Shown here: positions 3,100-34,465 of the stretch, piece by piece | Layout of the letters: each line of letters starts with the position of its first letter | Position numbering within the stretch: position 1 is the first letter of the stretch | NCBI RefSeq assembly: GCF_029478095.1 | Contig: NZ_JAKOAV010000022.1 | Coordinates: forward strand, 1 to 59,708 | Length of the DNA stretch: 59,708 bases | DNA from: Pelotomaculum isophthalicicum JI | GTDB lineage: Bacteria; Bacillota; Desulfotomaculia; Desulfotomaculales; Pelotomaculaceae | Direction: 5' to 3' | Notes under the pieces: model-generated | What the model was told of the DNA's origin: nothing | Database searches by the model: none | What the model saw: the letters and a program-made list of their open reading frames with translations, nothing else | Translations under genes and position numbers: made by a program

Positions 3100-4296
3100 A
3101 TGTCGAACGTCAAAAAGAACTGGCTTTACAAGGTTTTCATGGTCGTTCTCAGCGCGCTGCTGCTCGCCGGGTCGTTTAGCCTGACGGCGCCCGCGCCGGC
3201 CCTGGCCGCGTCGACTCAAGTACAGATTGACGGAAACGGGGTGACGAATCCCACGACCTTTACCGTGGTCCAGCTCCAGGCCATGGACGCGCAATACAAA
3301 CTTATTGAACAGCCGTACAGCACCATCAACACCTGGCCCACCAAGAAATTTTACCGGGCCACGGGGGTCAAACTGCAGCACCTGCTGGATTTGGCGGGGA
3401 TAACAGCGTCCGCCAAACAGCTTAAATTCTACACGACCGACGGTTTTGCAATAACCCTGACCCGCCAGGAGTTATTGCAGGACACGCGCTATTACTACCC
3501 GAATTTCAAGAACGTTGATCCCGGCGACAGCGACGGTTATAAGTTCAATGAAGACTCCGACAACAACGCGGCGGCGGTGGAGCCCATCCTCGCCTATTCC
3601 AGCGCCAGCGGCGGAGCGAATGACACTTCCCCTCCCCAGGCGTCAAGCATGAACGGCGACAGCGCCCTGCTCCTGATCTTCGGGCAGCGGGCGGTCAGCG
3701 AGCAAACCAATACTTTCTTTTTAAAGTATGTGAACAGGATCGAAGTGTTCACCACCCAACCGGATCAATGGGACAGCTCCATTCAGGCCAGTCCGGCCAG
3801 CGGGCCGCCCCCGGCCAACGGGCAGGTAGCGTTGTCCATACCCGGCGCCCCGGACAACGGGCAAGAGGACACGGATAAGATTTACTACACCACCGACGGC
3901 AGCACCCCGACCCTGAACAGCCCGATCTATAACTGGATCGGCAGCCGGTGGTGGGTAGACCGGGCGGCTGTTCTGAACACGATCAACCACCCGATCACCG
4001 TCGGCACTACCGGTGAAACAGCGATCAAGGCCGTCAGGATCGGCCCCCCCGGCTATACGCCCAGCAATTCCGGCAAAACGAACAGCGACGTGCAAACCTT
4101 CGTCTACACCAACCGCGCCAAAGGTGATATCGACTACGACGGCTACATCGATGTCACAGACCTGGGGATAATGATCGACATTATCAGTGCCGAGTATACC
4201 CCTAATGATTTTGAGTTCTACGCCGCTGATATCAACTCCGACGGCTACGTCGATGTCACGGATTACGGGATGCTTATTGACTTGATCTCAGGCTAG
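3100..4296 (+). CDS. secreted sulfite-oxidase-fold / chitobiase-C-like / dockerin protein
   Basis: A 398-residue protein with an AGGAGG site. A Sec signal peptide ends at ALA (residue 36). Residues about 40-215 are a module I read as the sulfite-oxidase/YedY molybdopterin-binding fold (IDGNGV, YSTINTWPTKKFY, VKLQHLLDLAG, then FGQRAVSEQTN). Thr occupies the place of the molybdenum-ligand Cys. Residues about 220-335 form a chitobiase C-terminal-like module (KIYYTTDGSTPT, IYNWIGSRWW). Residues 340-398 are a type I dockerin with two calcium loops, DIDYDGYIDVTDLG and DINSDGYVDVTDYG. The dockerin should bind the cohesins encoded next door, docking this module on the scaffolds. A decayed paralogue lies at 19754. 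Confidence 0.85.
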   Translation: MSNVKKNWLYKVFMVVLSALLLAGSFSLTAPAPALAASTQVQIDGNGVTNPTTFTVVQLQAMDAQYKLIEQPYSTINTWPTKKFYRATGVKLQHLLDLAGITASAKQLKFYTTDGFAITLTRQELLQDTRYYYPNFKNVDPGDSDGYKFNEDSDNNAAAVEPILAYSSASGGANDTSPPQASSMNGDSALLLIFGQRAVSEQTNTFFLKYVNRIEVFTTQPDQWDSSIQASPASGPPPANGQVALSIPGAPDNGQEDTDKIYYTTDGSTPTLNSPIYNWIGSRWWVDRAAVLNTINHPITVGTTGETAIKAVRIGPPGYTPSNSGKTNSDVQTFVYTNRAKGDIDYDGYIDVTDLGIMIDIISAEYTPNDFEFYAADINSDGYVDVTDYGMLIDLISG

Positions 4297-4355
4297 CAGA
4301 GTTTCTTGAACTTCCGCGAGCCAAGTATTAATCAAACTTAAGGAGGGGGATTTTT

Positions 4356-7058
4356 TTGTCAAGCATGAGTAACAAAACATGGCGCATCCTGCTCACGGTA
4401 ACGTTTATCATGGCCATGCTGTTCAGCGTCGGCATGGCGGCGCATGCCGATGAAAGCACGGTAGTGACTATCGGTAACGTCGTCGGCGGGCCTGGAACAG
4501 AGATCCAGGTTCCGGTTTATTTGAATAGTACGGGTAATGTGGCAGTAGGTCAATTTGACATGTACTATGACTCCGCCCTGTTAACCTACACGGGTTACAG
4601 CAGGGGGGATCTGGTGGCTTCCACCAGCCATAGTTTTATTGTCAGCAACCCGTCTACCGGTCCCAAGAGAACGAGAGTTATTATTTCAAGCAATCCCAAG
4701 GCAGCGATCCCGGCCGGTTCCGGCACCCTGATCATCCTGAGGTATCAGGTTGCGGCAGGCGCGCAGCCGGGTCAGAGTTGCGCCCTGCAACTAATCAACA
4801 ATCCGCCCACATCCACCTTGAAACTAAATGACGTTAACAACGCGGTAATCCCCACCACCTGGTACGACGGGCAGTTTAGCGTGCCCGGCGGGGGCAGCAT
4901 CACCCTGAGCGTGGACCCGGCCGCCGTCACCCTGAATGTCGGCGCCACCCGGGCCATCACTGCCACAGTTGACCCGAATGATGCCACCCTGAGCTACTCT
5001 TCCAGCAACGAAGCCGTGGCCGCCGTAGACACCACCGGCACAATCACCGCCTTGTCCCCGGGCGACGCCGACATCACCGTCACCGCCAGCAAGGCCGGTT
5101 ACACCACGGCCACAGCCACCGTGGCGGTCACCGTAAACGCACCGGCCGACACCGAAGCACCCGCCTGGCCTGAAGGCAGCATCTTGACCGCCGCCGCCTC
5201 CGGCGGCAGCGTGGACTTGAGCTGGCCGGCGGCCACCGACAACGTGGGCGTCACCGGCTATCAGGTTTACCAAAACAGCGCCCTGGTAGATACCGTGTCC
5301 GGCGCCACCCGGAACTACAACGTCACCGGGTTGATCCCCGGCAGCTACACCTTCAGCGTCAAGGCCGTGGATGCAGCCACTAACACCAGTGCGGCCTTGG
5401 ATGCCAACGCCAGCGTTGCGCTCGCCACCGACAAGACCCTGCAAATCTTCGGCACCGGTGTAAATCATGATGTAAACATAAACGCGACCGACTGGGCCGG
5501 TTTCACTCTCCAAGACCGGTACTATTCCTCTAACAACAGCTATAATTTCCACAAAATCGTCAAGACCAGAGGTTATAGTTTGTGGGATGTGATTGGTACT
5601 GATAATCTAAAAACCGACCAGGACTATGACGTTACCTTCATAGCTTCAGATGGTTTTAAGACAGTGAGAAAAGTCAGTCAGTTAAACGGCTATTTTTACT
5701 ACCCGGATTTGTATACCGAGGCAAGTAAAGTAACCGTCGGTCCAATGCTTGATTTTTACAAGGCGGAGCTTGTATCTGTTCAAGCCAATCCCCTGACCGG
5801 GCCGGTCATCTGGTCGGACCGTGAACTTGCCGCCGGCGACGCTGATTCAGGCGCCGTACGGGTAGTCTTTGGCCAGGCCAATGCCAGCGACAAGAATGAA
5901 TCCAGGTGGGCCAAATATGTGGTAAAAATCCTGGTGGGGCAGGATGCCGTCGCCCCCGCCTGGCCTGAAGGCAGCGCCCTGACCGCCGCCGCCTCCGGCA
6001 CCAGCGTGGCCTTAAGCTGGCCAGCGGCCACCGACGATGTCGGGGTAACCGGATATAACGTCTACCAGGGTGAGACACTGCTGACTGAAACCCCGATCAC
6101 CACCACCAGCTATAACGTCACCGGGCTGGCCCCCGGCAGCAGCTACACCTTCAGCGTCAAGGCCGTGGACGCCGCCGGCAACGCCAGCGCGCCATTGACC
6201 GCGGATGCAACCACCGCCCTGGGGGCCATCACCCTGAGCGCCAGCCCGGCCAGCGCCGCCCTGATTGCCGGTAACACCCAAGCAATCACCGCCACTGTTG
6301 ACCCGGCCGACGCCAGCCTGAGCTATGTTTCCAGCGACACGAGCGTGGCTGCTGTTGACGCCGGCGGCGTGATTAGCGCGGTCGGAGCGGGCAGCGCCAC
6401 CATCACCGTCACAGCCAGCAAGGCCGGCTACAACGATGCCACCGCCACCGTGCAGGTAACTGTGAATACTGCGGCGGAAACCGACCAGGTGGCTCCCGTC
6501 TGGCCAACAGCCAGCGCCTTGACCGCTACCGTCGCGGCTGACGGCGTCAGCGTGGCTCTAAGTTGGACCGCGGCCACCGATAACATCGCCGTGACCGGGT
6601 ACAAAGTTTACCAGAACGGCACTCTAATTACCACTGTGCCTGTTACCGGGACCAGCTATACCGCCACCGGCCTGACTGTGAACACTCAGTACACCTTCCG
6701 GGTCACCGCCGGTGACGCCGCAGGCAACTGGACCGGCAACGGCCCCAGCGCCACCGTGATCACCACCACCCCGACCACCGACACATCTCCACCTTACTGG
6801 CCGGCCGGCAGCGGCGTGACCGCCTCCGGCGCCACCCACTTCGGGGTGAATCTGAGCTGGACCGCCGCCGGTGACAACGTGGGCGTAACCGGCTACCGGA
6901 TCTATAAGAACGGCACCCTGATCGACACCGTGAGCGGCACCGGCTACAGCGCAACCGGCCTTAGCGCCAACACCATGTACACCTTCCGGATCACCGCCGG
7001 CGACGCCGCAGGCAACTGGAGCCGTAGCGGCGTTTCGGTAACCGTGACCACACCCTAA
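4356..7058 (+). CDS. secreted cohesin / Big_2 / FN3 protein, no wall anchor
   Basis: A 900-residue exported protein; TTG start with AGGAGGGGG six bases upstream. Signal peptide to AHA (31). Residues 34-175 are a cohesin (VGQFDMYYDSALLTYTGY). Then a Big_2 Ig-like domain (about 180-260), an FN3 domain (265-355), a divergent sulfite-oxidase-fold module (about 357-530: LQIFGTG, RGYSLWDVIG, RVVFGQA), FN3 (531-620), Big_2 (622-705) and two FN3 domains to the end. There is no SLH domain, sortase motif or dockerin, so it may be a free adaptor that binds dockerin proteins. The cohesin DNA is nearly identical to that in the next gene. A hairpin without a T tract follows. Confidence 0.85.
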   Translation: MSSMSNKTWRILLTVTFIMAMLFSVGMAAHADESTVVTIGNVVGGPGTEIQVPVYLNSTGNVAVGQFDMYYDSALLTYTGYSRGDLVASTSHSFIVSNPSTGPKRTRVIISSNPKAAIPAGSGTLIILRYQVAAGAQPGQSCALQLINNPPTSTLKLNDVNNAVIPTTWYDGQFSVPGGGSITLSVDPAAVTLNVGATRAITATVDPNDATLSYSSSNEAVAAVDTTGTITALSPGDADITVTASKAGYTTATATVAVTVNAPADTEAPAWPEGSILTAAASGGSVDLSWPAATDNVGVTGYQVYQNSALVDTVSGATRNYNVTGLIPGSYTFSVKAVDAATNTSAALDANASVALATDKTLQIFGTGVNHDVNINATDWAGFTLQDRYYSSNNSYNFHKIVKTRGYSLWDVIGTDNLKTDQDYDVTFIASDGFKTVRKVSQLNGYFYYPDLYTEASKVTVGPMLDFYKAELVSVQANPLTGPVIWSDRELAAGDADSGAVRVVFGQANASDKNESRWAKYVVKILVGQDAVAPAWPEGSALTAAASGTSVALSWPAATDDVGVTGYNVYQGETLLTETPITTTSYNVTGLAPGSSYTFSVKAVDAAGNASAPLTADATTALGAITLSASPASAALIAGNTQAITATVDPADASLSYVSSDTSVAAVDAGGVISAVGAGSATITVTASKAGYNDATATVQVTVNTAAETDQVAPVWPTASALTATVAADGVSVALSWTAATDNIAVTGYKVYQNGTLITTVPVTGTSYTATGLTVNTQYTFRVTAGDAAGNWTGNGPSATVITTTPTTDTSPPYWPAGSGVTASGATHFGVNLSWTAAGDNVGVTGYRIYKNGTLIDTVSGTGYSATGLSANTMYTFRITAGDAAGNWSRSGVSVTVTTP

Positions 7059-7288: not shown

Positions 7289-7384
7289 ATATTTGTTCAG
7301 AAAAGTATGCACGCAAGTGCGCGGCGCTTGCATTTTGAGAGTTTTGCCGGCGTCGTGCAAGCGTATTTGAGGAGGGAGAGATTT

Positions 7385-10300
7385 TTGTCAAGCGCGAAAA
7401 GTAAAACATGGCGCGTCCTGCTCTCGGTAGTGTTCGTCATGGCCATGCTGTTCAGCTATGGTCCGGCGGCGAACGCCGACGAAAGCACGGTAGTGACTGT
7501 CGGCGCCGTCACCGGTGAGCCTGGAACAGAGATCCAGGTTCCGGTTTATTTGAATAGTACGGGTAATGTGGCAGTGGGTCAATTTGACATGTACTATGAC
7601 TCCGCCCTGTTAACCTACACGGGCTACAGCAGGGGGGATCTGGTGGCTTCCACCAGCCATAGTTTCATAGTCAGCAACCCGTCTACCGGTCCCAAGAGAA
7701 CGAGAGTTATTATTTCAAGCAATCCCAAGGTAGCGATCCCGGCCGGATCCGGCACCCTGATCATCTTGAAGTATCAGGTTGCGGCAGGCGCGCAGCCGGG
7801 TCAGAGCTGTACCTTGCAACTGGTACACAATCCGCCCACATCTACCTTGAAACTGAATGAAGTCAATAACGCGGTAATCCCCGCCACCTGGCACGATGGG
7901 CAGTTTAGCATAACCGGCGGCCCCATCGCCCTTAGCGTGGACCCGGCCGCCGTCACCCTGAATGTCGGCGCCACCCGGGCCGTCAGTGCCACGGTTAACC
8001 CGAACGACGCCGGACTGAGCTACGCTTCCAGCGACACAGGCGTGGCCACCGTCAGCGCCTACGGCTTGATCAGCGCCGTGGCCCCGGGCGTCGCCGACAT
8101 CACCGTTACCGCCGCCAAGGCCGGCTACACCACGGCCACCGCCACCGTGGCGGTCACCGTGGTCGACGCGGCGCCAACCTGGCCCGCGGGCGCCGCCCTG
8201 ACCGCCGCCGCCACCGGCGGCAGCGTGAACTTAAGCTGGCCCGCGGCCGCCGGCGGCGCGGGCGTCACCGGCTACCAGGTCTGCCGGGACGGCAGCCTGC
8301 TGGCCACCGTGACATCCACCGTCTACACCGTCGACGGCCTGGCCCCAGGCAAATACTACTTTACCGTGAGGGCCGTGGACACCGCCGGCAACCTCAGCGC
8401 GGCCTTATCCGCCAGTGCGGCGCCGGGCCTGGCCAACGGCTATATCACCACCGTGGCCGGCAATGGAACACTTGGCTACTCCGGCGACAACGGCCCGGCC
8501 ACCGCTGCGCAGCTAAACCTGCCTAATGGCATGGCTATGGATGCCGCCGGCAACCTTTATATTGCAGATTCTGAAAATAATCGCGTCCGCGTGGTGGCGG
8601 CGGCTGATGGTGTCAGATGCGGCATCGCCATGACAGCCGGGAACATTTACACCGTGGCCGGCACCGGCAATCGAGGCTGCTCCGGCGACAACGGCCCGGC
8701 CGCCGGCGCGCAGCTAAACTTGCCTAATAGTGTTGCGGTGGACTCCGCCGGTAACCTCTACATCGCCGACACCGACAATCATCGTGTCCGCATGGTGGCG
8801 GCTGCTGACAGCACCAGATATGGAATCGCCATGACCGCCGGGAAAATCTACACCGTGGCGGGCACCGGCGCCGCCGGCTACTCCGGCGACGGCGGCCCGG
8901 CCGCTGGCGCAAAGCTAAGTTACCCTCAAGGAGTGACGGTGGATAGCGCCGGCAACCTCTATATCGCCGATAACCAAAACCATCGTATACGCCGGGTGTC
9001 TCCCAATGGTGCTATCACCACCGTGGCCGGAAATGAAATCCCTGGCTACTCCGGCGACAACGGCCCGGCCACCGGCGCTCAGCTTACCTCGCCTAGTGCT
9101 GTGGCGGTGGATACCGCCGGCAACCTCTACATTCTAGACAGCTATTACCAACGTGTTCGCATGGTGGCGGCGGTGTCCGGCACCAAATACGGCATCAACA
9201 TGACCGCCGGGAACATTTACACCGTAGCCGGCATCGGTATTCCGGGCTACTCCGGCGACGGCGGCCCGGCCACCGGCGCTCAGCTTACCTCGCCTAGTGC
9301 TGTGGCGGTGGATACCGCCGGCAACCTCTACATCGCCGACGGCAATCGCGTTCGCCGGGTGGCCCCCGGCGGCATCATCACCACCGTGGCCGGCACCGGC
9401 GTCAGCGGCTGCTCCGGCGACGGCGGCCCGGCCGGCGGCGCGCAGTTAACAGGCACTAGGGGTGTGGCGGTGGACGCCGCCGGCAACCTCTACATCGCCG
9501 ACAGCGGCAATCAGCGCGTCCGCTATGTGCCATCGCCGGTTTCTTCATCTTACCTGGCCACCCTCACCCTGAGCGGCAGCCCGGCCCTGAACTACAGCGG
9601 TGCCCCCTTTACCTACGACCTGAGCAGCCTCACCCTGGCCGGCGTTGGCCAGAACGGGGCGGCCTTCGACCTCACCGGCCAGACGGTCACCTGGGCGCTC
9701 ATCTCCGGCCCAGCCACTATCTCGGGCAGCACACTGACCATCAACGGCAGCGGCATCGTGAGCGTCACCGCCCGGGCGCTCGGGATCACCAGCAACACCC
9801 TTAGCCTTACCGTCACCAACAACGCCGGTAGTCAACCCCCGGCCCTGGCCGCGGATATCACCGGCAACAATGTCGGCCAGGATATCGAGCTGACCTTCAC
9901 TGACGACCCGGCCTGGCGTGGGGCCATCGGCGGGATCAGCATCGGAGGCGCGGCGCTTGGCGCCGGTCAATATACCATCGCTGCCGGCAAGATTACCGTC
10001 AGCGGGGCTATCTTCGCCACAGCCGGGGATTACGCCGTCGTGATTACAGCCGCCGGGTACGCGAACGCCTCCGTGACGCAGACGATACTGCCGCCCGGGA
10101 TAAAAACGCCGCCCGCCCTGGCCTTCGATTACACCGGTAACACCGCCGGCCAAGATATCGAGCTGACCTTTACGGACGACCCGATCTGGCGGGGGGCGAT
10201 CAACCAGGTTAGCGTCGACGGCGCGGCGCTCGGCGCCGGTCAATATACCATAGCGGCCGGCAAGATCACCATTAGCGGAGCCGTGTTCCCGGCGGAAAAA

Positions 10301-13300
10301 AATTATGCCGTCGTGATCACTGCTACCGGCTACGCGAATGCCGGCGTGACGCAGCCCATTGAAGAAATCGCGCTTGAAATCAAAGGGGACGGAGTGGAGA
10401 ATCCCGTTAGCTATACAATGTCCCACCTCCGGGCCATGCCTCAATACGAGCATTTGTACAGCACTATTAACGTCTTCCCCAGTAAAAACTTTTACCGGGC
10501 CCGGGGAGTCAAAGTCAGCGACCTGCTCGCCCCGGCGGGAGTGAAAAATGATGCCAGGCAGATTAAATTTATGTCTCTGGATAGTGAAATGGCATATACA
10601 GCTGAATTTCCCCTGCCGCAGTTTTTTAATGAAAAGCGCTATTATTACCCGCATTTCAAGGATGTAACCACCGCCGACGGCGACGGCGACGGGTGGATTC
10701 CCGGCGATTCATCTGGTGCGGAAGAGGTAGAGTCAATCATTGCACTAACAGTCAGCATTGGTCATACTAAACCACCTGCCGACTTTTCAGATATTGACAA
10801 TGATTTCTCATTTAAGTCCCTGATTGTAGGGCAGCGGTCGGTTCTCGAGGAGACGAACCCTTCTTTTGTGAAATATATGAAGGTAATCAAGGTGCTCACC
10901 GCCGATTTGGAAAAATGTCCCAATCCGCAGGCTGATCCAGGCGTTCTAGACGGTACCATGACGGTGCCCGCCGGGACCAAGGTGTATCTGAGTGCTCCCC
11001 CGGATAGTCTAAATTATAGGCAAATTCATTACACCACGGATGGAAGCACCCCGGACGTGAGCAGCCTAATTTATAATTGGAGCGGCAATAGTTATAACCC
11101 ATCACGAAACGTCCCCCTCGAAATCAGAAAGAGCACCACGCTTAAGGCTATCTTCATTGGCGACGGCAAGCGGGGCGGGTTGGACAGCGACGTGGTCACC
11201 TACCACTACCATGTCGACGTGGCCATGCCTCCGGACCTGGTGACCGATACCACCGATAATACGGTGGGTTGGCCGGTAGAGCTGGCCTTCCATTTCGGCA
11301 ACCCATATGTTACCGACGACGCGGACTGGCGGGCGGGCATCAGCGAGGTCAGTGTAGACGGCGTGGTGCTGGCCGCCGGGCAGTATTCGGCCGGCACCCC
11401 CGGCAAGCTCACCATCAGCGGCGACGTGTTCACCACGGCTAAAGATTATACCATTGTGATCAAGGCCGCCGGCTACACCGACGCCACCGTGACCCAGACC
11501 GTCCTTGAGTCCCTGAGCGAGCCGCCCGCCCTGGCAGCGGACACCACCGGGAACGTAACCGGGTGCCAGGTGGAGCTGACCTTCACCGACGACCCGGCCT
11601 GGCGGGGGGCCATCACCGGGATCACCGTCGACGGTGCGGCCCTGGCCGCCGGGCAGTACTCAAAAGACACCGCCGGCAAGATCACCATCACGGCAAATGT
11701 GTTCACCGCCGCCAGAGATTACACCATCGTAATTAAAGCCACCGGGTACAACGACGCCACCGTGACCCAGACCATCACCGGGCTGGTGGTGGAAAAGGCG
11801 CCCCTTCTGACCTGGTCCGGCGATCCCAAAACCACCCAGACCGTCACCTGGCTGATGCCGCAGACCTTTGCCACGGCCAAAGTACAGTACCTGGAAGCGG
11901 CCGGCTTTACCGGCAGCTTTGCCGGCGCCCAGGAAGCGGCGGCCGCCGGCCGGGCCTTCGGCGCCTCCGGCGCGGACAACCTGTTTTCAGTCAACCTGAC
12001 CGGCCTGGAGCCGGGGACGCGGTACGTCTACCGGGTCGGGTCCGGGGCGGACTGGAGCGGCCAGTACACCTTCACCACGGCTTCTGATACCGACGCCTTC
12101 TCCTTCCTGTACCTGGGCGACGTCCACGCCGGGTACAGCGCGGGCTGGGACGGCCAGTGGAGCGGGATGCTGGATTCAGCCTGTGCCGCGCACCCCGGCC
12201 TGAAGTTTTCCCTCCAGGGCGGGGATTTGACCAACGCGGACGACGAGGCGGAATACCGGCAGTTCCTCGGCGCGGCCACGGGAACATTCTCCCGGATTCC
12301 CTTCATGCCCGCTCTGGGGAACCACGACGGCGCCTTCTACCTGGATTTCTTCACCCTGCCGGAAAACGGCCCCGCCGGCCAGAAAAAAAGGTTTTACTCC
12401 TTTGACTACGGCAACGCCCACTTCGCCGTGCTGGACAGCGACAGCAACGGTGACGCGGCGGCCGCCGAGTGGCTGCGGCAGGACCTGCAAGACAATCACA
12501 GCCAGTGGAAGTTCGTGGTGTTCCACAAGCCCGCCTACTACGCCAGTGACGATGGGAAGACAGCCACATACGACGCCATACGGGCGACCTGGGTCCCCAT
12601 CTTTGAGCAAAACGGCGTGGATATGGCCTTTGTCGGCCACCAGCACGTGTACATGCGGACCAAGCCCATGCGGGACAACCAGGTCCAGGCGGACGGGCAG
12701 GGCATCACCTACGTCATGGGCGTGTCGGGACCCAAGTATTATGCCGCCGGGGAAGATTACGACTATGTCGCCAAAGAAGTGGCCAATGTCAGCAATTACC
12801 AGGTCGTCAGCATTGACGGCGGCGAACTGACCCTGACCTCTGTCCAGGCGGACGGCCAGGTCATCGACACTTATCAGATCGACAAGAACGCTGGTGTCCC
12901 GGCCCCCGTCTGGCCCGACGGCAGCGCCCTGACCGCCGCCGTCTCCGGCAGCGACGTGGTCTTGAGCTGGCCCGCGGCAACCGGCGACGGCATAACCGGT
13001 TATCGGGTCTACCAGGACGGCAACCTGCTGACCACCGTCGCAGATGCCGTTTACAGCGGCACCGTCACCGGGGCTGTATACGGCGACGCTTATAGCTATA
13101 CCGTAACCGGGCTGGCGCCCGGCAGCTACCAGTTCAGCGTCAAGGCGGTAAATGCCGCCCAAAAAACCAGCGCGGCCCTGACCGCCGGAGTCAGCATCAC
13201 CGGCTCCATGGACACCATGGCACCCGTATGGCCGGAAGGCGGCGCCTTAACCGCCGCCGTCTCCGGCAGCAGCGTGGCCTTGAGTTGGCCCGCGGCGTAT

Positions 13301-20962: not shown

Positions 20963-20987
20963 GTCAATTTCTGGCGATAAGGGGAGT

Positions 20988-23329: not shown

Positions 23330-23342
23330 GGAGGTCAATCCC

Positions 23343-25289: not shown

Positions 25290-25356
25290 TAATACCGGTT
25301 TCACTGAATATATACGAGCAGTGACAGTCATTGATCAAACAGGAAGTGTAAGTTCA

Positions 25357-26259: not shown

Positions 26260-26264
26260 TTGAT

Positions 26265-27377
26265 GTGGTTTTAAAAAAAGGCGTATGTCTTTATGTGGTT
26301 TTACTTCTGGTATGCTGCGTCCTGGCCGGCTGTTCCCTGCAGAAGGCCGCCGCTGTCAATCCGGAGTATGAAGGTCAGAAGATCGTTATTGAAGGCGATA
26401 TGGACGCGCCCAAAGAGATCACCGTGGTAGAAATGCGGGCGCTGACCCAGAAAAAACTGGATGCCAACTTCAACCGGACCACGGGCCTTCTGGAAGAATT
26501 TAAAGCGGCCGGCCCCACCGTTCAGGATGTACTGGCTCACGCGGGTATTAAATTTGAGGATTACAAGGGCGTCGGCTTTGTGGGTAAGGACGGTTACTAC
26601 TGTCTGGTGACGCCGGAAATCATGAGCAGCCGGGAGATGATTCTGGCAATAAACATCGACGGGCGGAGCGAACTGCCGGATGAACTGAGTCCCGCGCGGC
26701 TGTGCGTGCAGGGGGAGTTCGGACCTTACTGGGTGAAAATGGTCGACAAGATTGTTTTATACAAGGAGATCCCGGAAAAAAGCATTTCTTCCGTCTGGGT
26801 CTTTAAAAACCTCACGCAAGGGATTGAACCTTACCAGTATGAGTATTACGGCAGTAAAGACGACGCCATCGAGCTGGCGCAAGTCTTTTCCCGCTTTGAC
26901 AACGTGAACAACAAGGCCTTCTTTACCATGAAATCATCGGACGGTTTCAAGAAAAATGAAGCGTTGAACATGGTCAGCAAGCGCTATTACATCAAAATTG
27001 AGGGTGAAGGCGCTCCCATGAACATGTCGCCCAACATCAAACTGGGTATGAACGTGCAGCGTATCGCCTGGTTTTCCACAAACGCGGACGCGGCGGTATT
27101 CCCTGAAGAATTGATCAAATTGACCGGAGAGAAGGAGGTTGGCGGGCAAAAGGGCATCCCCTTGCAGGCCATGCTGGAAGAAGTGCAGGTCAAGGGCATC
27201 GAGGGAAAACAGTTTGAGGTCACCGGCACGGACGGCGGGAGCGTCAATGTCAGCGGCCGGGACCTGGCCGAGGGAATTCTGATCATTAAAGGTGACGGCA
27301 CTTACCCGGTGGTCTGGACCGAAGGAAAAGGGCTGAGTCCCATCGGCAACTTGATGCGCATCCGTTCAATGGATTAG
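26265..27377 (+). CDS. lipoprotein with two divergent sulfite-oxidase-like domains
   Basis: About 370 residues. GTG 26265 has AAGGAGG nine bases upstream; a TTG at 26256 that overlaps the preceding stop is too close to the same site. Lipobox VLAGC is perfect. Two domains follow (about 40-170 and 175-365), each with a KD/SDG turn and segments such as VQDVLAHAGI, VGKDGYYCLV and IPLQAMLEEV, which I read as distant copies of the sulfite-oxidase fold. There is no chitobiase-like module and no Cys at the equivalent position. Fold assignment is weaker than for the neighbours. Confidence 0.6.
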   Translation: MVLKKGVCLYVVLLLVCCVLAGCSLQKAAAVNPEYEGQKIVIEGDMDAPKEITVVEMRALTQKKLDANFNRTTGLLEEFKAAGPTVQDVLAHAGIKFEDYKGVGFVGKDGYYCLVTPEIMSSREMILAINIDGRSELPDELSPARLCVQGEFGPYWVKMVDKIVLYKEIPEKSISSVWVFKNLTQGIEPYQYEYYGSKDDAIELAQVFSRFDNVNNKAFFTMKSSDGFKKNEALNMVSKRYYIKIEGEGAPMNMSPNIKLGMNVQRIAWFSTNADAAVFPEELIKLTGEKEVGGQKGIPLQAMLEEVQVKGIEGKQFEVTGTDGGSVNVSGRDLAEGILIIKGDGTYPVVWTEGKGLSPIGNLMRIRSMD

Positions 27378-27379
27378 GG

Positions 27380-28330
27380 ATGATGACTATGTTTTTGGTG
27401 AGCAGAATGTTTAAAAAGATAGGGTTGATCACGTTCTTGCTGGTCATTGGGCTGAGCCTTTTGACAGGATGTCAAGGCCAAAAACGGGAGGTAAACCCGG
27501 CTTCAGCCGGCAGGGCGCCGGAAAGTCAAGTCAATCAAGCCGCCGGGAAAGCCGGCAGTGGAGAGGTCGTCCTGACCGTCAAGGGATCCGGGGTGGAGCA
27601 TGAAACGAAGTATAACCTCGACGAATTGAAAAGCATGACGGATGCCCTGGCCGGTGAGTGTTACTCGACCGTTAACAACTGGCCTGCGAAAAAATTTTTT
27701 GTGGGTAAAGGCGTCCTGGTTTCCCAGTTGTTGCGCAAGGCCGGGATCAAGGATGAGGCCCGGACGATCACCGTCACGGCCGCGGACGGTTATAACGCCA
27801 CTTTGACCAGAGAACAATTGGATGAAAAACGGTATTGTTTCCCGAACTTGCAGAAGGGAAGCGCGGAGGGGGCGCGTGAGGTTCCGGCGATCCTGGCCTG
27901 GGAGCATCAGGAAGGCGCCAGCGACTTGAGCAAGGCGGTCGGCGGTAACCTGCGCCTGCTTTTCGGCCAGAAAGGAATGAACGACGTGGTCACTGCCGCC
28001 TATGTCAAAGATGTGGCTACCATCGAAGTGTCGACCGCGCCGCCCGGCCGGTGGGACGTGGTTGGAGCAGAGCCCGCGCCCGGCAAGGTCAAGCGGGGGA
28101 CCGGCGTCGTTTTGAGCCATCCCGGCCTGGACCGGGTCAAGATCTATTACACCTTGGACGGGAGCACTCCGGATATTAAAAGCCTGGTGTACAACCCCAG
28201 CGCGACGTACTTCCAACCGGACCTGATCAAGCCGATCCCGGTGGACAAACCGGTTACCATCAAAGCTATTGTGATTGGCTACGGGAAACACGACAGCCAG
28301 GTGGCAACGTTTAAGTACGACGTGGAGTAG
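27380..28330 (+). CDS. lipoprotein with sulfite-oxidase-fold and chitobiase-C modules
   Basis: 316 residues starting two bases after the previous stop. Lipobox LLTGC. After a Ala/Gly/Gln linker the sulfite-oxidase-fold module (about 60-215) shows CYSTVNNWPAKKFFVGKGV, VSQLLRKAGIKDEA and FGQKGMND; Thr sits at the ligand-Cys position, although a Cys occurs two residues earlier. A chitobiase-C-like module ends the protein (KIYYTLDGSTPD, VYNPSATYF). It resembles the lipoprotein at 25357 more than the secreted forms. Confidence 0.8.
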   Translation: MMTMFLVSRMFKKIGLITFLLVIGLSLLTGCQGQKREVNPASAGRAPESQVNQAAGKAGSGEVVLTVKGSGVEHETKYNLDELKSMTDALAGECYSTVNNWPAKKFFVGKGVLVSQLLRKAGIKDEARTITVTAADGYNATLTREQLDEKRYCFPNLQKGSAEGAREVPAILAWEHQEGASDLSKAVGGNLRLLFGQKGMNDVVTAAYVKDVATIEVSTAPPGRWDVVGAEPAPGKVKRGTGVVLSHPGLDRVKIYYTLDGSTPDIKSLVYNPSATYFQPDLIKPIPVDKPVTIKAIVIGYGKHDSQVATFKYDVE

Positions 28331-28360: not shown

Positions 28361-28972
28361 GTGCGAAAATACATAATTGTAATGCTTGCCGCGGCGGTTA
28401 TGGCATTGATCATAACAGGGTGTTCGGATTCAAAGAAGATGACCGACCGTCAGAAGGAGGCATTTCAGGAATTACTCGGCAGTGACCAAAGTATTGCTGG
28501 TGCAAATGTTAAAGCCATTGAACTGCCGGAGGAAGCGGCGAAAAAGTTTCCGGCTGTGAAAAAAGTGTTTGAGATAACCGCCGGATCACGGAAATATTAC
28601 GCCTTTGCCGCAAGCCCGCGGGGATACCGGAGCACTATTGATCTTTTCATCTTAATAGACGGAGCCCAAAAAGAGGTGACGGGGATCAAAGTATTGCGGC
28701 ATGACGAAACACCCGAATACGCGGGAAGCCTGACCAGGGAATGGTTTTTAAACAGATTCAGGAACAAGAGCGCCGGCGCCTATCTAAATCGAGTGGTTTT
28801 GGAGGCGTCCCAGCCTAACGACGTGATTCAGATCACCTGTGCCACGGTCAGTTCACAGGCGGTCATTAACGGGGTCAATGCCGCCATGGGAACCTACCGC
28901 GAGGTGATCCTGGGCGAGGAAGCACCGCCGGTGCCTCTTGCAGTGGAGGAATTTGTCACGGAAATCAGGTAG
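28361..28972 (+). CDS. FMN-binding-domain lipoprotein (RnfG/NqrC-like)
   Basis: 203 residues with lipobox IITGC (Cys21). The rest is an FMN_bind domain: YYAFAASPRGYRSTIDLFI, GIKVLRHDETPEYAG, and ITCATVSSQAV, in which Thr162 fits the S/T-x-A-T site that binds FMN covalently through phosphate in RnfG and NqrC. It lacks the rest of an Rnf complex nearby. Placed among oxidase-fold lipoproteins, it suggests electron transfer on the outer face of the membrane. GTG start with a poor ribosome site. Confidence 0.8.
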   Translation: MRKYIIVMLAAAVMALIITGCSDSKKMTDRQKEAFQELLGSDQSIAGANVKAIELPEEAAKKFPAVKKVFEITAGSRKYYAFAASPRGYRSTIDLFILIDGAQKEVTGIKVLRHDETPEYAGSLTREWFLNRFRNKSAGAYLNRVVLEASQPNDVIQITCATVSSQAVINGVNAAMGTYREVILGEEAPPVPLAVEEFVTEIR

Positions 28973-29039
28973 AGTGAAGTGCCATGCCGGTAATTAAACG
29001 GTAGAGTGTCACTTGTTCAAAAGCGCGGAGGCCATATGG

Positions 29040-29561
29040 ATGACTGAAACAGGTAAGGAATTAAACCCAAAAAAGCTTCTCGGCCTGGGAATTCTGCTGC
29101 TGGCATTTATTATAGCTGTTTTCGCGTTCTTGAACCGCGACAGGGAAGGACTGCGGGAAGGTCAATTATTGATTAAAGCGGAAGGTGTCAGGCTAGGCGT
29201 CCTGACGGTGGATGACCTTCGCAAATTACCGGAGGTGCGAAAAAGAATGGTCATAAATTCCACCAGCGGACTGACGAGACACGAATTTACCGGTACTCCG
29301 CTGGCGGCCGTGCTGGACAGCGTAGATCATGGTCTGACACAAAAGTACGCCAGGATTGTCACGAGGGGCATCGACAACTACACCTCGGGAGTAAGCATGT
29401 CCGAAATCTTGCGGCCGGATAATGTATATGTTGTTTATTCTGATTACGGAAAACCGTTAAAAACGAAGACAGGCGGGGAGGGAACCATACAAATCGTTGT
29501 TTGCGATGATGAGTTCGGACAGCGCTTTACCAATTATCTGGTGAGCCTGGAATTGCAGTAA
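29040..29561 (+). CDS. membrane-anchored single sulfite-oxidase-like domain protein
   Basis: 173 residues from ATG 29040 (GCGGAGG eight bases before). One transmembrane helix (about 13-31) anchors an extracellular domain with RLGVLTVDDLRKLPEV, TGTPLAAVLDSVD, YTSGVSMSEIL and VVYSDYGKPL. This is the minimal form of the oxidase-like fold seen in this cluster, with no ligand Cys and no accessory module. It ends the lipoprotein run. Confidence 0.65.
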   Translation: MTETGKELNPKKLLGLGILLLAFIIAVFAFLNRDREGLREGQLLIKAEGVRLGVLTVDDLRKLPEVRKRMVINSTSGLTRHEFTGTPLAAVLDSVDHGLTQKYARIVTRGIDNYTSGVSMSEILRPDNVYVVYSDYGKPLKTKTGGEGTIQIVVCDDEFGQRFTNYLVSLELQ

Positions 29562-29632: not shown

Positions 29633-32600
29633 TTGTTTGGCAGGAAAAGTAAAACACTCCGCATCCTGCTTTCAGTATTTTTCATAATAAGTATGCTGTT
29701 GAGCTATGGCCCGGCGGCGAATGCCATTGAAAGCACGGTAGTGACTGTCGGTACCGTCACCGGTGAGCCTGGAACAGAGCTCCAAGTTCCGGTTTACTTA
29801 ACCAGTACGGGTAATGTGGCTGTGGGTCAGTTTGACATGTATTATGACTCCGCCCTGCTAACCTACACGGGTTACGACAGGGGGGATCTGGTGGTTTCCA
29901 CCAGCCATACTTTCATAGTAACCAACCCGGGAACCGGTCCCAAGAGAACGAGAGTAATTATTTCGAGCAATCCCAAAGTGGGGATCCCGGCCGGTACCGG
30001 CACCCTGATCATCCTGAAGTATCAGGTTGCGGCAGGCGCGCAGCCGGGCCAAAGTTGCGCCCTGCAACTAATCAACAATCCGCCCACATCCACCTTGAAA
30101 CTAAATGACGTCAGTAACGCGGTAATTTCCGCCACCTGGCAGGACGGCCAATTTAGCGTGCCCGCTCTGCCTGATATTACTATAAGCGGTGTTCCGGCCA
30201 GCGTTAACCTGGCTAAAAATGACACTCAAACCCTGAGCGTCACCACTGACCCGGCCGATGCCACCGTAACCTACGCTTCCAATAACGAAGCCGTGGCCAC
30301 TGTAAGCGCCGGCGGCGAAATCAGCGCAGTAGGAGGGGGCAACACCACCATCACCGTCACCGCCAACAGGTCCGGGTATAACACGGCCACAGCCACTTGT
30401 AATGTGACCGTACAAGTGCCGGTCAGTGGGGTCACCCTCAATAAGAATAGCACCACTATTACCGTGGACGGTTCCGAACAGTTGACGGCGACTGTAACTC
30501 CGGGCGACGCCACCGACAAGAGTGTTACGTGGAGTTCCGACACTCCTGGAGTAGCCACGGTCAGCAATGGCCAGGTGACTGGAGTCGCCCCGGGCGCTGC
30601 CACTATCACCGTGACTACAGTTGACGGCGGCTACACCACCACCTGCGATGTGACTGTCAACCCGGGCACCATAACCATCAGCGGTGTACCGGCTAACGCC
30701 ACCCTGACTGTGGGCGGTACCACCCAGACAATTAACGCCACAACAACTCCTAATAATGCCAGCCTGAGCTACGCCTCCAGCAACGAAGCCGTGGCCACTG
30801 TCAGTGCCGGCGGTCTGATCACCGCCGTGGCTCCGGGCGATGCCAACGTCACCGTCACCGCCAGCAAGGCCGGCTACAACCAGGCCACATCGACCATTGC
30901 GGTACATGTCAACCCGGGCACCATCACCCTTAGTGTGAACCAGACCAACGTCACCCTGACCACTGACAGCACCCATACCATAGTACCCACGGTAAACCCG
31001 GCCGATGCCGGCGTGACCTACTCATCCAGTGACACGAACGTGGCCACTGTCGGTGGCGGCGGCGTGATTACCGCTATGGCTCCTGGTGATGCAAACATCA
31101 CCGTCACCGCCAGCAAGAATGGCTATAACGATGCTACAAAGACCGTTGCGGTACATGTCAACCTGGGCACCATTACCATTAGCGGTGTTCCGGCCGACGT
31201 CACCCTGAATAAAAATAGCACTCAAACCTTGAGCGCCATCACTAATCCCGCTGGTGCCAGCCTGAGCTTCGCTTCCAGCAACACTTCCGCTGCCACTGTA
31301 AGCGCCGGCGGCGAAATCAGCGCAGTAGGAGGGGGCAGCGCCACCATTACCGTCACCGCAGCCAAGGCCGGGTATAACACTGCCACAGCCACTTGTAATG
31401 TAACCGTGCAAGTGCCGATCAGCGGGGTCACCCTCGATAAGACCAGCACCACTATAACTGTAGACGGTAACGACCAGCTGACGGCGACCGTAGCACCGAA
31501 CGATGCCACCGACAAGAGGGTAACGTGGAGTTCCGACACACCCGGAGTAGCTACGGTCAGCAACGGCCAGGTGACTGGCATCGCCCCGGGCACTGCCATT
31601 ATCAACGCTACTACAGTTGACGGCGGCTACACCGCCGCCTGCAATGTGACCGTCAACCCGGGCAACATTACCATCAGTGGTGTTCCGGCTAACGCCACCC
31701 TGACCGTGGGCGGCACCACCCAGACAATTAACGCCACAACAACTCCAAATGATGCCACCGTAACCTACGCTTCCAGCAACGAAGCCGTGGCCACCGTCAA
31801 TGCCGGCGGCTTAATCACCGCCGTAGCTCCTGGCGACGCCAACGTCACCGTCACTGCCAGCAAAGCTGGTTATAATAATGCGACAACAACCGTTGCGGTA
31901 CATGTCAACCCGGGCACAATCACCCTGAGCGTGGACCATGCCAACATCACCCTGACCACTGACGGCACCCATACCATAGTACCCACGGTAAGCCCGGTCA
32001 ATGCCGGTGTGAGCTATTCATCCAATGACACGAACGTGGCCACCGTCAATGGCGACGGGGTGATCACCGCCGTGGCTCCGGGCAGCGCCAATATCACCGT
32101 CACCGCCGTCAAGGCCGGGTATAACGATGCCACAGCCACCGTAGCGGTAACGGTAAACCTGGGCGCAATAATGGTGAGCGATATACCGGCCAACTACAGT
32201 TTGAATGCCGGTGGCACCCAGGCCATTAGCGCTACTGTAAGCCCGGCCGGTGCCAGCCTCAGTTATACGTCCAGCGATCCGAATGTGGCTACCGTAAGTA
32301 ACAACGGAATCATTACCGCCATAGCCCCGGGCAGCGCCACCATCACCGTTGCCGCCTCTAAAAGCGGCTATACCACGGGCACAGCTACCGTACTGGTTAC
32401 CGTGGCAGATACAACAGCGCCAACCTGGCCTGCCGGCTGCGGTCTGACCGCTACTGTCGCCGCTAATAAAGTCACCCTCGAATGGTTACCGGCCAGCGAC
32501 AACTTAGGTGTCACCGGTTACCAGATTTATCAGGATAACAATCTGCTGACCACAGTTACAGGGACTGTCTACTGTACTGTGACTGTGAATACCACGGGCA

Positions 32601-34465
32601 GCCACAGTTTCAGCGTCATAGCGGTGGATGCCGGCCAAAATGCCAGCGGGGCTTTAACTGTAAGTGTCATTATAGCAGACATCGAACCTCCAATATGGGG
32701 AAAAAACAGCGCCTTGACCGCTACGGTCAGCGCACCTGGCAACGTGAACTTAAGCTGGCCAGCGGCAACCGACAGTGCCGGAGTAACCGGATATAGGGTA
32801 TATCAGGATGAAAACTTGCTGACTACTCCACCAATAACCAATACAAGTTATACCGTCACCGGCGCGACCTACGGCACCTATACCTTCACGGTCCAGGCAG
32901 GCGATGCGTCCGGAAACTGGAGCACTGCCGGCTTGAGCACTTCAATTTTCATTGCCCAAATAAATAACACGGTTTCGGGTGATGTATATTCCTATACCGG
33001 GCAACCAATCAGTCTGCCGGCGATTGCGCCCCTGAATAATGGTAATGTGCAGTTATGTACTGATATTCCGGCGGGAACTACCATAACCGGACCTGCGATG
33101 TGGAATGGTGAAATCCAGGCTCCGACCGTCATGCAAGCGGAAACTATCAACAGCTCATTGGTGACGCCTGATGCCGGGAAGGTCGCATCGGTCAACACGG
33201 TCATAGAAGTCGGCTTGAACAACGGCACTTTGGAATTTGACAAGGCTGTAAGGCTCCTCATTCCCGGTCAGGGCAACCTGGACGTTGGCTATATTGACGG
33301 AAGCGGCGCGTTTCATAAGATTAATACCGTGGTGGAAGCGACTTATGCAGACGCGGTCACAGCGGAATTGGCTGCCAAATCAGTCCGGGAAGGAAAACAG
33401 GTCGTTGGCGGCAATGATCTGGCGGTATGGACCATGCATTTCACCAAGTTCGTCACTTATGAACAGACTAATCGCCATAGTTCCAGTAGTGACGGCGGCG
33501 GCAGCGCGACACCCCAGGCAGTTACCTCCACAACCGGAACGGCATTAGTGTCGCCCGGCGTGGGTGGCGTCATCAGCCTGGGCAATGAGGCCACCGTTGA
33601 GATACCGGCTGACGCGTTGACCGGAACCAGCGCGGTGGAAGTGAAAGTACAGAAATTGACCACTCCACCAACTGTTCCCACTGGTTTCCGGATGGCCGGC
33701 AGCGCTTACGAGTTAAGCGTGGGGGGCAAGAGCAGCTACAATTTTGCCAAAAACGTAACGATCAAACTTAGCTTCAATTCCAGCGCCCTCAGCGCGGACG
33801 AGACCCCGGCCATCTATTATTACGACGATGTCAAAGACCAGTGGGTAAACCTCGGCGGCACCGTTTCCGGCAATACCGTTACCGTGCAGGTGGTCCACTT
33901 CACAAAATTTGCCGTGCTGGCCGTTAAGAAAGAAGAACAAAAGGTAGAGGCATTAAATGACATCGCCGGTCACTGGGCTGAAGCCAGTATTAAAAAGCTG
34001 GTGGCGTTGGGCTGCATTAGCGGTTATCCCGACGGCAGCTTCAAGCCTGACAACAATATCACCAGGGCTGAATTTGCCACCATATTGGTAAAGGCGTTCA
34101 AGCTTGATAACAAGGGCGGCAAAATTTTTGCCGACACGGCAGCGCACTGGGCTAAAGACTACATTGCCGCGGCAGCGGCCAACGGGGTGGTCAACGGCTA
34201 TGACGCCGGCGCCTTTGGCCCGGACGACCTGATCACCCGTGAACAGATGGCCGTGATGGTTGTCAAGGCAGCTAAACTCGCCACGGAATCTTCTCAGGGG
34301 ACATCCTTTAAGGATAGTTCTGCCATTTCTCCCTGGGCTGCCGGAGCAGTGGCCGTCGCAGCGCGCAATGGTGTTATTAAAGGCTATCCCGACGACATAT
34401 TCCTGCCGCAAGGCCGGGCCACCAGGGCTGAAGCCGTGACGGTTATTGTAAATGTGTTGAAATAG
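29633..34465 (+). CDS. S-layer-anchored cohesin scaffold with nine Big_2 domains
   Basis: 1610 residues, TTG start with AAAGGAGGG. Signal peptide to ANA (31); cohesin 33-178; nine Big_2 Ig-like domains 180-925; two FN3 domains (927-1108); an unassigned region (1110-1283) ending in a HFTKFVTYE strand; a ZU5-like domain (about 1290-1435); three SLH domains (1442-1610, with HWAEASIKKL, GYPDGSFKPD, TRAEFATIL). Big_2 domains 1-4 and 5-8 are a tandem duplication with a period of 996 bp (332 residues). The protein is a stalk that holds one cohesin away from the wall. Its cohesin and SLH parts closely match those of the 3143-residue scaffold. Confidence 0.9.
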   Translation: MFGRKSKTLRILLSVFFIISMLLSYGPAANAIESTVVTVGTVTGEPGTELQVPVYLTSTGNVAVGQFDMYYDSALLTYTGYDRGDLVVSTSHTFIVTNPGTGPKRTRVIISSNPKVGIPAGTGTLIILKYQVAAGAQPGQSCALQLINNPPTSTLKLNDVSNAVISATWQDGQFSVPALPDITISGVPASVNLAKNDTQTLSVTTDPADATVTYASNNEAVATVSAGGEISAVGGGNTTITVTANRSGYNTATATCNVTVQVPVSGVTLNKNSTTITVDGSEQLTATVTPGDATDKSVTWSSDTPGVATVSNGQVTGVAPGAATITVTTVDGGYTTTCDVTVNPGTITISGVPANATLTVGGTTQTINATTTPNNASLSYASSNEAVATVSAGGLITAVAPGDANVTVTASKAGYNQATSTIAVHVNPGTITLSVNQTNVTLTTDSTHTIVPTVNPADAGVTYSSSDTNVATVGGGGVITAMAPGDANITVTASKNGYNDATKTVAVHVNLGTITISGVPADVTLNKNSTQTLSAITNPAGASLSFASSNTSAATVSAGGEISAVGGGSATITVTAAKAGYNTATATCNVTVQVPISGVTLDKTSTTITVDGNDQLTATVAPNDATDKRVTWSSDTPGVATVSNGQVTGIAPGTAIINATTVDGGYTAACNVTVNPGNITISGVPANATLTVGGTTQTINATTTPNDATVTYASSNEAVATVNAGGLITAVAPGDANVTVTASKAGYNNATTTVAVHVNPGTITLSVDHANITLTTDGTHTIVPTVSPVNAGVSYSSNDTNVATVNGDGVITAVAPGSANITVTAVKAGYNDATATVAVTVNLGAIMVSDIPANYSLNAGGTQAISATVSPAGASLSYTSSDPNVATVSNNGIITAIAPGSATITVAASKSGYTTGTATVLVTVADTTAPTWPAGCGLTATVAANKVTLEWLPASDNLGVTGYQIYQDNNLLTTVTGTVYCTVTVNTTGSHSFSVIAVDAGQNASGALTVSVIIADIEPPIWGKNSALTATVSAPGNVNLSWPAATDSAGVTGYRVYQDENLLTTPPITNTSYTVTGATYGTYTFTVQAGDASGNWSTAGLSTSIFIAQINNTVSGDVYSYTGQPISLPAIAPLNNGNVQLCTDIPAGTTITGPAMWNGEIQAPTVMQAETINSSLVTPDAGKVASVNTVIEVGLNNGTLEFDKAVRLLIPGQGNLDVGYIDGSGAFHKINTVVEATYADAVTAELAAKSVREGKQVVGGNDLAVWTMHFTKFVTYEQTNRHSSSSDGGGSATPQAVTSTTGTALVSPGVGGVISLGNEATVEIPADALTGTSAVEVKVQKLTTPPTVPTGFRMAGSAYELSVGGKSSYNFAKNVTIKLSFNSSALSADETPAIYYYDDVKDQWVNLGGTVSGNTVTVQVVHFTKFAVLAVKKEEQKVEALNDIAGHWAEASIKKLVALGCISGYPDGSFKPDNNITRAEFATILVKAFKLDNKGGKIFADTAAHWAKDYIAAAAANGVVNGYDAGAFGPDDLITREQMAVMVVKAAKLATESSQGTSFKDSSAISPWAAGAVAVAARNGVIKGYPDDIFLPQGRATRAEAVTVIVNVLK

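Follow-up and report, generated by a model that had tools for sequence, protein, structure and literature searches.

Cysteine-less sulfite-oxidase-fold modules at the surface of Pelotomaculum isophthalicicum JI, linked to a TolQ-DUF2149 pair and an ECF transporter: a possible pterin capture system

Introduction

PruR of the PruR-DcpA systems of Agrobacterium and Vibrio is an exported, single-domain protein of the sulfite oxidase (SUOX) fold that lacks the cysteine of the enzymes and is the periplasmic partner of a cyclic diguanylate (c-di-GMP) enzyme. Here we analysed a stretch of 59,708 nucleotides from Pelotomaculum isophthalicicum JI (contig NZ_JAKOAV010000022.1, positions 1 to 59,708; hereafter the window), which holds a gene cluster with many copies of a module that resembles PruR in these features and in its Asn/Asp-x-Tyr positions. 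In contrast to PruR, the copies are anchored to the wall, to lipid or to the membrane, and they are tied to a TolQ/MotA/ExbB-family channel protein paired with a DUF2149 protein (TolQ-DUF2149) and to an energy-coupling factor (ECF) transporter. No DcpA-type GGDEF/EAL partner was noticed by eye among those open reading frames (ORFs) of the window that were read, and no dedicated search for one was made.

Other described systems share parts with this locus. In the hmuYRSTUV operon of Bacteroidota, too, a ligand-binding protein of the surface is encoded together with TolQ/ExbB and DUF2149. However, the binding fold in the present system differs, an ECF importer is present, and CobN/HmuS was found in none of 25 module-bearing genomes, some of which are incomplete metagenome-assembled genomes (MAGs). 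In the Isd/NEAT relay of Gram-positive bacteria, a single kind of binding domain is repeated at the wall, on lipoproteins and at the membrane, along a path that leads to an importer. The same layout is seen here, but with another fold, an ECF instead of a classical ATP-binding cassette (ABC) importer, a TolQ-like pair, and redox and phosphatase branches. The flavin-based extracellular electron transfer locus of Listeria reportedly combines ApbE-type flavinylation and an ECF transporter with a flavin mononucleotide (FMN) lipoprotein, as the present system does; we know of no SUOX-fold modules or TolQ-DUF2149 in that locus, and the molybdenum/tungsten (Mo/W) neighbours of the present system set it apart. 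Sulfite oxidases and MsrP (YedY) share the fold, but the modules lack the Cys and the loop associated with the molybdenum cofactor (Moco), and a CHB domain is found instead of a Mo-co_dimer domain, which gave no match in Pfam scans of the cluster proteins. Cellulosomes have type I dockerin, cohesin scaffolds and SLH anchoring in common with the locus, whereas the cargo here is a putative binding module, the same scans gave no glycoside hydrolase match, and cohesin is optional.

No description of the system was found in the open-access literature. The accessible part of a paper on Syntrophomonas (PMC3582634) holds nothing on the cluster, and the words 'molybdopterin' and 'sulfite' are absent from two papers on flavinylation (PMC8238504, PMC11334425). 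Among the open-access papers listed on Moco/pterin transporters, no bacterial pterin importer is apparent; one paper suggests that some type 11 secretion systems (T11SS) may serve molybdopterin uptake (PMC12282271).

Results

Predicted fold and pocket residues of the module

Eleven copies of the PF00174-type module were aligned in the window, and a remnant lies in the broken gene at 19754. Several copies score below the Pfam cut-off on their own and the copy in the 4356 protein has no PF00174 match; eight of the 11 form a coherent family with 38-73% identity to the first alignment row. A module alignment (A1) found nothing below E 0.29 when compared with PDB by sequence alone. The AlphaFold model of the module and CHB domain of the 23632 protein reached a predicted local distance difference test (pLDDT) score of 92.6, and Foldseek followed by VIA-align placed SUOX enzymes on top, with SoxC (Z 15.2, 126 aligned residues, 1.9 A) and SorA (Z 14.9, 127 aligned, 2.0 A) ranking before PruR with neopterin (7rkb; Z 13.6, 124 aligned, 2.5 A). 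For the 26256 lipoprotein, whose model is of lower confidence (pLDDT 76), PruR was the best match (7kom; Z 15.7, 121 aligned of 134, 2.1 A; SoxC 14.3). A second SUOX lobe in this lipoprotein was considered and rejected, the profile comparison giving it a probability of 0.3%. PruR 7kom was also the top match of the membrane-anchored 29013 module among PDB sequences (E 0.014); in a profile search PruR came second (E 0.0016) after a nitrate reductase (E 0.0015). Profile comparison showed the main module and the membrane module to be homologous (97% probability, E 5.9e-11). The modules have no conserved Cys, and the Cys-bearing loop of plant sulfite oxidase is a gap in both alignments made. The module is therefore predicted to have a sulfite-oxidase fold without the Mo-binding Cys, near the solved sulfite oxidases and PruR.

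The main-module alignment (A2) has 40 rows, seven from the window and 33 from other loci, one of which (L053) is the window's own 27563 module; the 3100, 4356, 26256 and 29013 modules and the partial ones of L046 and L057 are left out. G7, Y31, N35, P38, K40, G47, D72, Q144 and I162 are invariant in these rows. In the PruR study (PMC13259868), pterin binding is linked to Trp160 and to Tyr104, which is Phe in some proteins, and Asn102, replaced by Asp in some groups, is named as a residue that may set specificity. The equivalent of position 102 is D72 in all 40 rows, and that of position 104 is Y/F74 (Tyr in 35, Phe in 5). Asp and Tyr are also invariant at these two places in the alignments of the other two module types (A3 and A4).

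A conserved core of module, TolQ, DUF2149 and module

The GTDB contigs were scanned once with the module, which gave 56 loci in Pelotomaculum, Syntrophomonas, Sporotomaculum, Desulfoscipio, Dethiobacter, Desulfosporosinus, other Firmicutes MAGs and a few Oscillospiraceae; many of these loci are contig ends. Two contigs of Pelotomaculum sp. PtaB.Bin013 are 100% identical to the window over 11,123 and 6,617 bases.

TolQ was found in 34 of the 56 loci. Counted over labelled plus-strand ORFs, the order module (or CHB)-TolQ-DUF2149-module holds in 33 of these 34, and the exception (L024) ends after TolQ. All 33 DUF2149 proteins retain the motif N-[IV]-x-D-x-M-L-V, a motif reminiscent of the membrane Asp of ExbD. 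The C-terminal membrane segment upstream of TolQ exceeds the Kyte-Doolittle (KD) threshold of 1.6 in 14 of 34 cases, and a similar stretch is visible in six that were inspected. The protein after DUF2149 (23632 and its counterparts in L003-L041) ends in Cu_amine_oxidN1 (CuAO_N1) in some lineages and in SLH in others, suggesting that CuAO_N1 is a wall anchor. Judged from gene order, the conserved core is module-TolQ-DUF2149-module, and cohesin-dockerin lies outside it.

Around this core stand module-HID scaffolds with SLH or CuAO anchors and module lipoproteins. A CHB domain, mostly directly behind the module, is present in 53 of the 56 loci, SLH in 40, CuAO_N1 in 18, the 26256-type lipoprotein in 17, and the FMN lipoprotein and the membrane module in 13 each, the last three counts being lower bounds because of the contig ends. 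The purple-acid-phosphatase-like family occurs in 19 loci, an iron-sulfur (Fe-S) protein in eight and ApbE in seven, some of these assignments being confirmed by Pfam. The FMN lipoprotein motif I-T-x-[AS]-T is kept in 13 of 13 rows, two of which duplicate others.

At the level of genomes, DUF2149 was found in 22 of the 25 module genomes, a non-random set picked for holding the module. A 299-genome sample of the phylum, in which some of the 25 recur under other handles (for example G021/G067 and G012/G158, with the same coordinates), contained 46 genomes with some module match and 13 module-rich ones, defined by at least 3 matches and a best E of at most 1e-10, a cut set after the matches had been viewed. 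DUF2149 is present in 11 of the 13 module-rich genomes versus 12 of the 286 others (p 2.7e-12); without this cut the figures are 12 of 46 matched genomes versus 11 of 253.

Six TolQ-DUF2149 loci were examined in genomes without a strong module match. CobN is a partner in three of them (L088, L089, L095), together with DUF2162 in L088 and with ECF and DUF3344-SLH proteins in L089; in L090 the pair stands with an SBP_bac_5/CuAO protein and ABC genes that are of Opp type by eye, L091 is similar by eye, and the neighbour proteins in L092 have no assigned family. Since the partners differ in these genomes, TolQ-DUF2149 appears to be a common energiser that serves various ligands at the surface, and the loci with other surface ligand domains (L089, L090, L091) point to a family of related systems.

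Linkage to the ECF importer, MobB and a kinase

The ECF S-component (ECF-S, PF09819) was found in 25 of 25 module genomes versus 2 of 14 controls. Of its 34 matches, 19 lie less than 20 kb from DUF2149; the contigs that carry the remaining 15 have no DUF2149 match. The ECF-S gene directly follows DUF2149 in L080 and L081. A PF00174 domain forms the C-terminal end of the S proteins of L063 and L087 (22.0 and 22.9 bits, below the cut-off of 24). PF00174 did not match the long S protein of L034, so that two of the three long S proteins checked are fusions. Two further loci, L066 and L086, in which some gene labels were assigned by phmmer or by eye, carry ApbE, a module lipoprotein, an FMN-module protein, an Fe-S-FMN membrane protein and then ECF-S, followed by a membrane module, ECF ATPase(s), ECF-T, NusG_II, MobB and kinase. 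The ECF linkage, the fusion of S protein and module, and the gene order shared by L066 and L086 make it very likely that the window's ECF-MobB operon, in which the S-component, both ATPases and the T-component are present, is part of this system.

Eight MobB matches over the cut-off have frames of 249-273 aa, and ECF-S or DUF2149 is found on the contig of every one of them; this count covers 31 of 38 rows, seven weak or fragmentary ones being omitted, of which one lies in a 250-aa frame (G014, below the cut-off). Three shorter MobB matches (G007, G008, G017) lie less than 4 kb from an ECF-S match. The kinase adjoins MobB in the window and, in six further loci, lies at most 25 bases from it. 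No kinase was found beside MobB in L085/L093 (a single stretch), in L051 and L053, where the record ends, or in L070 and L096, where MobB is short.

Genes for molybdenum and tungsten near the system

TupA-like genes lie less than 20 kb from ECF-S or DUF2149 in nine of 30 loci, against at most 0.7 expected from rounded genome sizes (p 6e-8), and near the system in eight of 21 TupA-positive genomes. This count covers 35 of 36 rows, two rows being one gene, and all of the matches are below the NCBI cut-off. Among the neighbours identified with NCBIfam and Pfam, TupA-like, TupB-like, MoeA-like and ModE-TupA-like genes are below the curated cut-offs, and ModA, MobB and MOT1 are above them.

Gene content of the window and the cohesin-dockerin layer

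The features of the cluster are listed in Table 1. A first-pass annotation of the same DNA had described the cluster as a cohesin-dockerin surface system built from sulfite-oxidase-fold modules, and its list of parts stands. The three cohesin proteins that it named, encoded by the 4356, 7307 and 29633 genes, match PF00963 at their N-termini (E 4.9e-11, 7e-12 and 4.8e-11 with the N-termini scanned alone; whole-protein Pfam scans reported cohesin for the 7307 protein only). The one working and one broken dockerin gene are recognized in the 3100 gene (PF00404, E 9e-7) and in 19754-20490 with its early stop, and the two scaffolds said to end in SLH are the 7307 and 29633 proteins (Pfam). Its count of about twelve modules is fair, with the 11 aligned copies and the remnant. 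The working dockerin cargo is, as it had stated, a module-CHB protein, and the ExbB-like channel, the FMN lipoprotein and the ECF transporter with MobB all have Pfam or NCBIfam matches. Most positions were right, but the second cohesin protein, which had been placed at 7385, has an ORF that begins at 7307. The terminator suggested before the ECF operon is present as a hairpin at 34471-34492; however, the scan that detects it does no better on the window than on shuffled sequence (20 sites versus 22.1). A second terminator-like hairpin at 20532-20552 flanks, together with the first, the 20844-34465 run; both are weak evidence because of this lack of excess over shuffles. The purple-acid-phosphatase-like domain and the five HID domains of the 7307 protein, the ExbD-like motif of DUF2149 and the APH/RIO-type kinase go beyond the first-pass annotation.

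The proposed fold agrees with the predicted structure and the Foldseek search, the expected recurrence of modules with TolQ-DUF2149 and ECF-MobB is seen in other genomes, and the suggestion that such a surface system is undescribed accords with the searches of the open-access literature. In contrast, cohesin-dockerin is not a defining feature. Some cohesin is present in 14 of the 25 module genomes, and within 20 kb of DUF2149 in three of those 14 (G000, G001, G019), where contig breaks can hide others, and the label occurs in five of the 56 loci, one of them (L044) unconfirmed: the phmmer 'cohesin' label on L044:846-5807 was rejected, as Pfam did not confirm it. A module-CHB-dockerin protein recurs in Dethiobacter (L045, adjoining a cohesin gene) and in Desulfosporosinus sp. 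Tol-M (L044), and in another Desulfosporosinus sp. Tol-M locus (L038) a cohesin-module protein follows DUF2149. The cohesin-dockerin layer is thus real but optional, and would add modules to the wall in some lineages. The earlier observation is confirmed and its interpretation borne out in part. A second cohesin-dockerin-SLH cluster, in which no module was seen, is carried by the same genome on another contig (L001 9566-16765, L002 8288-14003).

Table 1. Features of the module cluster and the adjoining ECF operon in the window.
Feature	Position	Strand	Details
Secreted module-CHB-dockerin protein	3100..4296	+	module 3211-3750; dockerin 4120-4284; PF00174 (below cut-off), PF13290, PF00404
Secreted cohesin protein with divergent module	4356..7058	+	cohesin 4461-4778; module 5430-5924; no SLH found
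SLH-anchored scaffold	7307..16816	+	cohesin 7490-7813, NHL repeats, 5 HID domains, 3 SLH
Modules of the 7307 scaffold (n=3)	10367-10918, 13493-14026, 14612-15136	+	
Purple-acid-phosphatase-like domain of the 7307 scaffold	about 12101-12652	+	
Broken module-dockerin gene copy	19754..20490	+	start frame stops early; module mostly gone; dockerin end intact; read by eye
Module-CHB-Big2 protein	20844..22661	+	hydrophobic segment at C-terminus; gene overlaps TolQ gene
TolQ/MotA/ExbB-family channel protein	22658..23329	+	PF01618 3.9e-7
DUF2149 protein	23334..23606	+	PF09919 at 23343-23591; NIVDAMLV motif, ExbD-like
Secreted module-CHB-CuAO_N1 protein	23632..25026	+	structure predicted
Lipoprotein module-CHB	25273..26259	+	PF00174 below cut-off; lipobox read by eye
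Lipoprotein, PruR-like N-terminal lobe	26256..27377	+	structure model; PruR 7kom Z 15.7
Lipoprotein module-CHB	27380..28330	+	Pfam scan
FMN_bind (RnfG-type) lipoprotein	28361..28972	+	PF04205; TIGR01947 56 bits, below cut-off
Membrane-anchored single PruR-like module	29013..29561	+	PDB match 7kom
SLH-anchored cohesin scaffold	29633..34465	+	cohesin 29738-30079, about nine Big_2, fn3, 3 SLH; no module found
Intrinsic-terminator-like hairpin, 9 pairs	34471..34492	+	hairpin scan, not enriched over shuffles
ECF transporter S-component	34551..35132	+	PF09819
ECF-type ATPase	35166..35900	+	PF00005
ECF-type ATPase	35907..36566	+	PF00005
ECF T-component	36577..37323	+	PF02361
MobB-FeS protein	37369..38118	+	family profile matches
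APH/RIO-type kinase, after MobB	38123..38866	+	PF01636, PF01163

Small secreted proteins that look camelysin/TasA-like by eye (1886-3013 and 17183-19748) flank the scaffold genes and are accompanied by a signal peptidase (PF10502) and a DUF5305 protein, an arrangement like that of a matrix-fibre locus. Read by eye, the protein of the ORF at 39218-40204 looks like the C-terminal portion of a vanadium-haloperoxidase-like enzyme; it has no Pfam match and is possibly truncated. On the minus strand, 41942-43036 encodes a protein that is RsgI-like anti-sigma by eye, with a tail of Asn/His/Ser-rich tandem repeats, and 43998-46147 holds an Fe-S protein (PF04060), a CobW/HypB/UreG-type GTPase (PF02492) and, by eye, an ABC ATPase-like protein; a GTPase like this one (by eye) is also found near the Dethiobacter cluster (L060). 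The identity of a cluster protein with NF041762 (diheme GEGP protein) was rejected, since the score is far below the cut-off and the cluster proteins have no CXXCH.

Discussion

We propose that the cluster serves to capture a reduced pterin at the cell surface and to import it, most likely a pterin related to molybdopterin or tungstopterin or a breakdown product of these, and give this reading a probability of about 0.46. Modules on the SLH scaffolds, and dockerin-docked copies in some lineages, would trap the pterin at the wall and hold it non-covalently, in the manner of PruR. The phosphatase would trim a phosphate or nucleotide, and the FMN/Fe-S branch may keep the pterin ring reduced. Ion flow through TolQ-DUF2149 would drive the hand-over from the wall to the lipoprotein and membrane modules, from which the ECF S-component would import the ligand; the kinase and MobB-FeS could then re-phosphorylate it and return it to Moco metabolism. 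From the parts, their predicted fold, their order and their linkage we infer what the ligand is, that TolQ-DUF2149 acts as a motor, and all of the catalytic steps. Among the roles left open by the first-pass annotation (pterin, metal or tetrapyrrole capture, redox contact, adhesion), pterin capture fits best, short of proof.

Several points weigh against this proposal. Pterin binding by the modules and the identity of the ligand are putative, and the phosphatase, kinase and redox roles are assigned through guilt by association. Plant sulfite oxidase has Asp and Tyr in the same two columns as D72 and Y74; therefore, these residues mark the general pterin pocket of the fold and do not prove binding. 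The suspected place of Trp160 is occupied by Phe in 35, Tyr in four and Cys in one of the 40 rows, with an aligned PruR fragment that ended before position 160. The PruR site is described as probably too small for Moco (PMC13259868), which makes intact Moco a doubtful ligand; from this comparison a piece of Moco, or a reduced pterin of a simple type, appears more likely. Long-type MobB gave no match in 17 of the 25 module genomes, ApbE and the Fe-S membrane protein were not seen by eye among the window ORFs read, and the genome that holds the window has no TupA close to the cluster. Finally, genes for FecCD-type ABC permeases and binding proteins lie near the Dethiobacter cluster and one Pelotomaculum cluster (L060 3580-6734, L061 12630-19001, L069 263-1276). 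Such systems often serve iron chelates, heme or B12; they can also carry molybdate.

The system could instead capture the molybdate or tungstate oxyanion, or a small non-Mo pterin of the folate or monapterin type, as a nutrient or signal. The TupA-like, MOT1 and ModA neighbours would suit an oxyanion, and PruR prefers tetrahydromonapterin (PMC13259868). However, dedicated TupA/ModA binders already stand next door in some genomes, and an oxyanion would need neither MobB nor kinase nor phosphatase. We consider this explanation unlikely.

A somewhat smaller chance is left to tetrapyrrole (heme or corrinoid) capture by an S-layer version of Hmu, with TolQ-DUF2149 corresponding to HmuU/HmuV, the HID domains contacting heme proteins, and FMN/Fe-S proteins reducing the metal. 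The case for it is raised by the occurrence of DUF2149 in hmuYRSTUV, an operon with MotA/TolQ/ExbB and DUF2149 at its end whose expression is induced when iron is limiting (PMC10434189), and is weakened by the lack of CobN/HmuS in the 25 module genomes, incomplete MAGs among them. While the five HID domains of the 7307 scaffold, the CobN partners of TolQ-DUF2149 in module-less L088, L089 and L095, and the FecCD-type genes agree with tetrapyrrole capture, the predicted module fold is of the pterin type, the CXXCH heme motif is absent from the cluster proteins of the window, NEAT domains gave no match in Pfam scans of these proteins, and the genes enriched near the system are those for Mo/W.

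Extracellular electron transfer, in which FMN_bind, ApbE, a NapH/NosR-like Fe-S protein and NusG_II would feed the wall modules as redox partners or as contacts to a syntrophic partner, is a slightly poorer candidate still and in our view quite improbable. It would leave the ECF-module fusion and MobB unexplained, the modules have no Moco Cys, and the window's cluster proteins have no heme motif. The retained FMN lipoprotein motif, the Fe-S and ApbE genes and the hosts in syntrophic genera speak for it, but the FMN lipoprotein is present in 13 of the 56 loci versus 34 for TolQ, many loci being contig ends. A purely adhesive or structural role, in which the module would be a degenerate enzyme domain that now serves as a spacer, is the least probable of these explanations, since the Big_2, fn3, HID, NHL, SLH and cohesin domains are indeed typical of surface adhesins but pocket residues invariant over 40 rows, a fixed order with a proton-channel pair (33/34) and an ECF-S-module fusion are unexpected for a spacer.

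If the pterin proposal is carried further, the motor-driven TolQ-DUF2149 surface relay might represent a new class of envelope system, which would scavenge molybdo- or tungstopterin released by neighbours, dephosphorylate it, keep it reduced via flavin and Fe-S proteins, import it through an ECF transporter with its own PruR-like domain and reactivate it by kinase and MobB, as a Mo/W cofactor salvage in syntrophic communities. We regard this wider version as rather doubtful. Several of the module hosts belong, by name, to syntrophic genera, whose formate dehydrogenases require a cofactor with Mo or W. If the proposal is right, cofactor cross-feeding would be linked to syntrophy, and a function would be suggested both for TolQ-DUF2149 outside Bacteroidota and for proteins that are annotated as 'molybdopterin-dependent oxidoreductase' but have no catalytic Cys.

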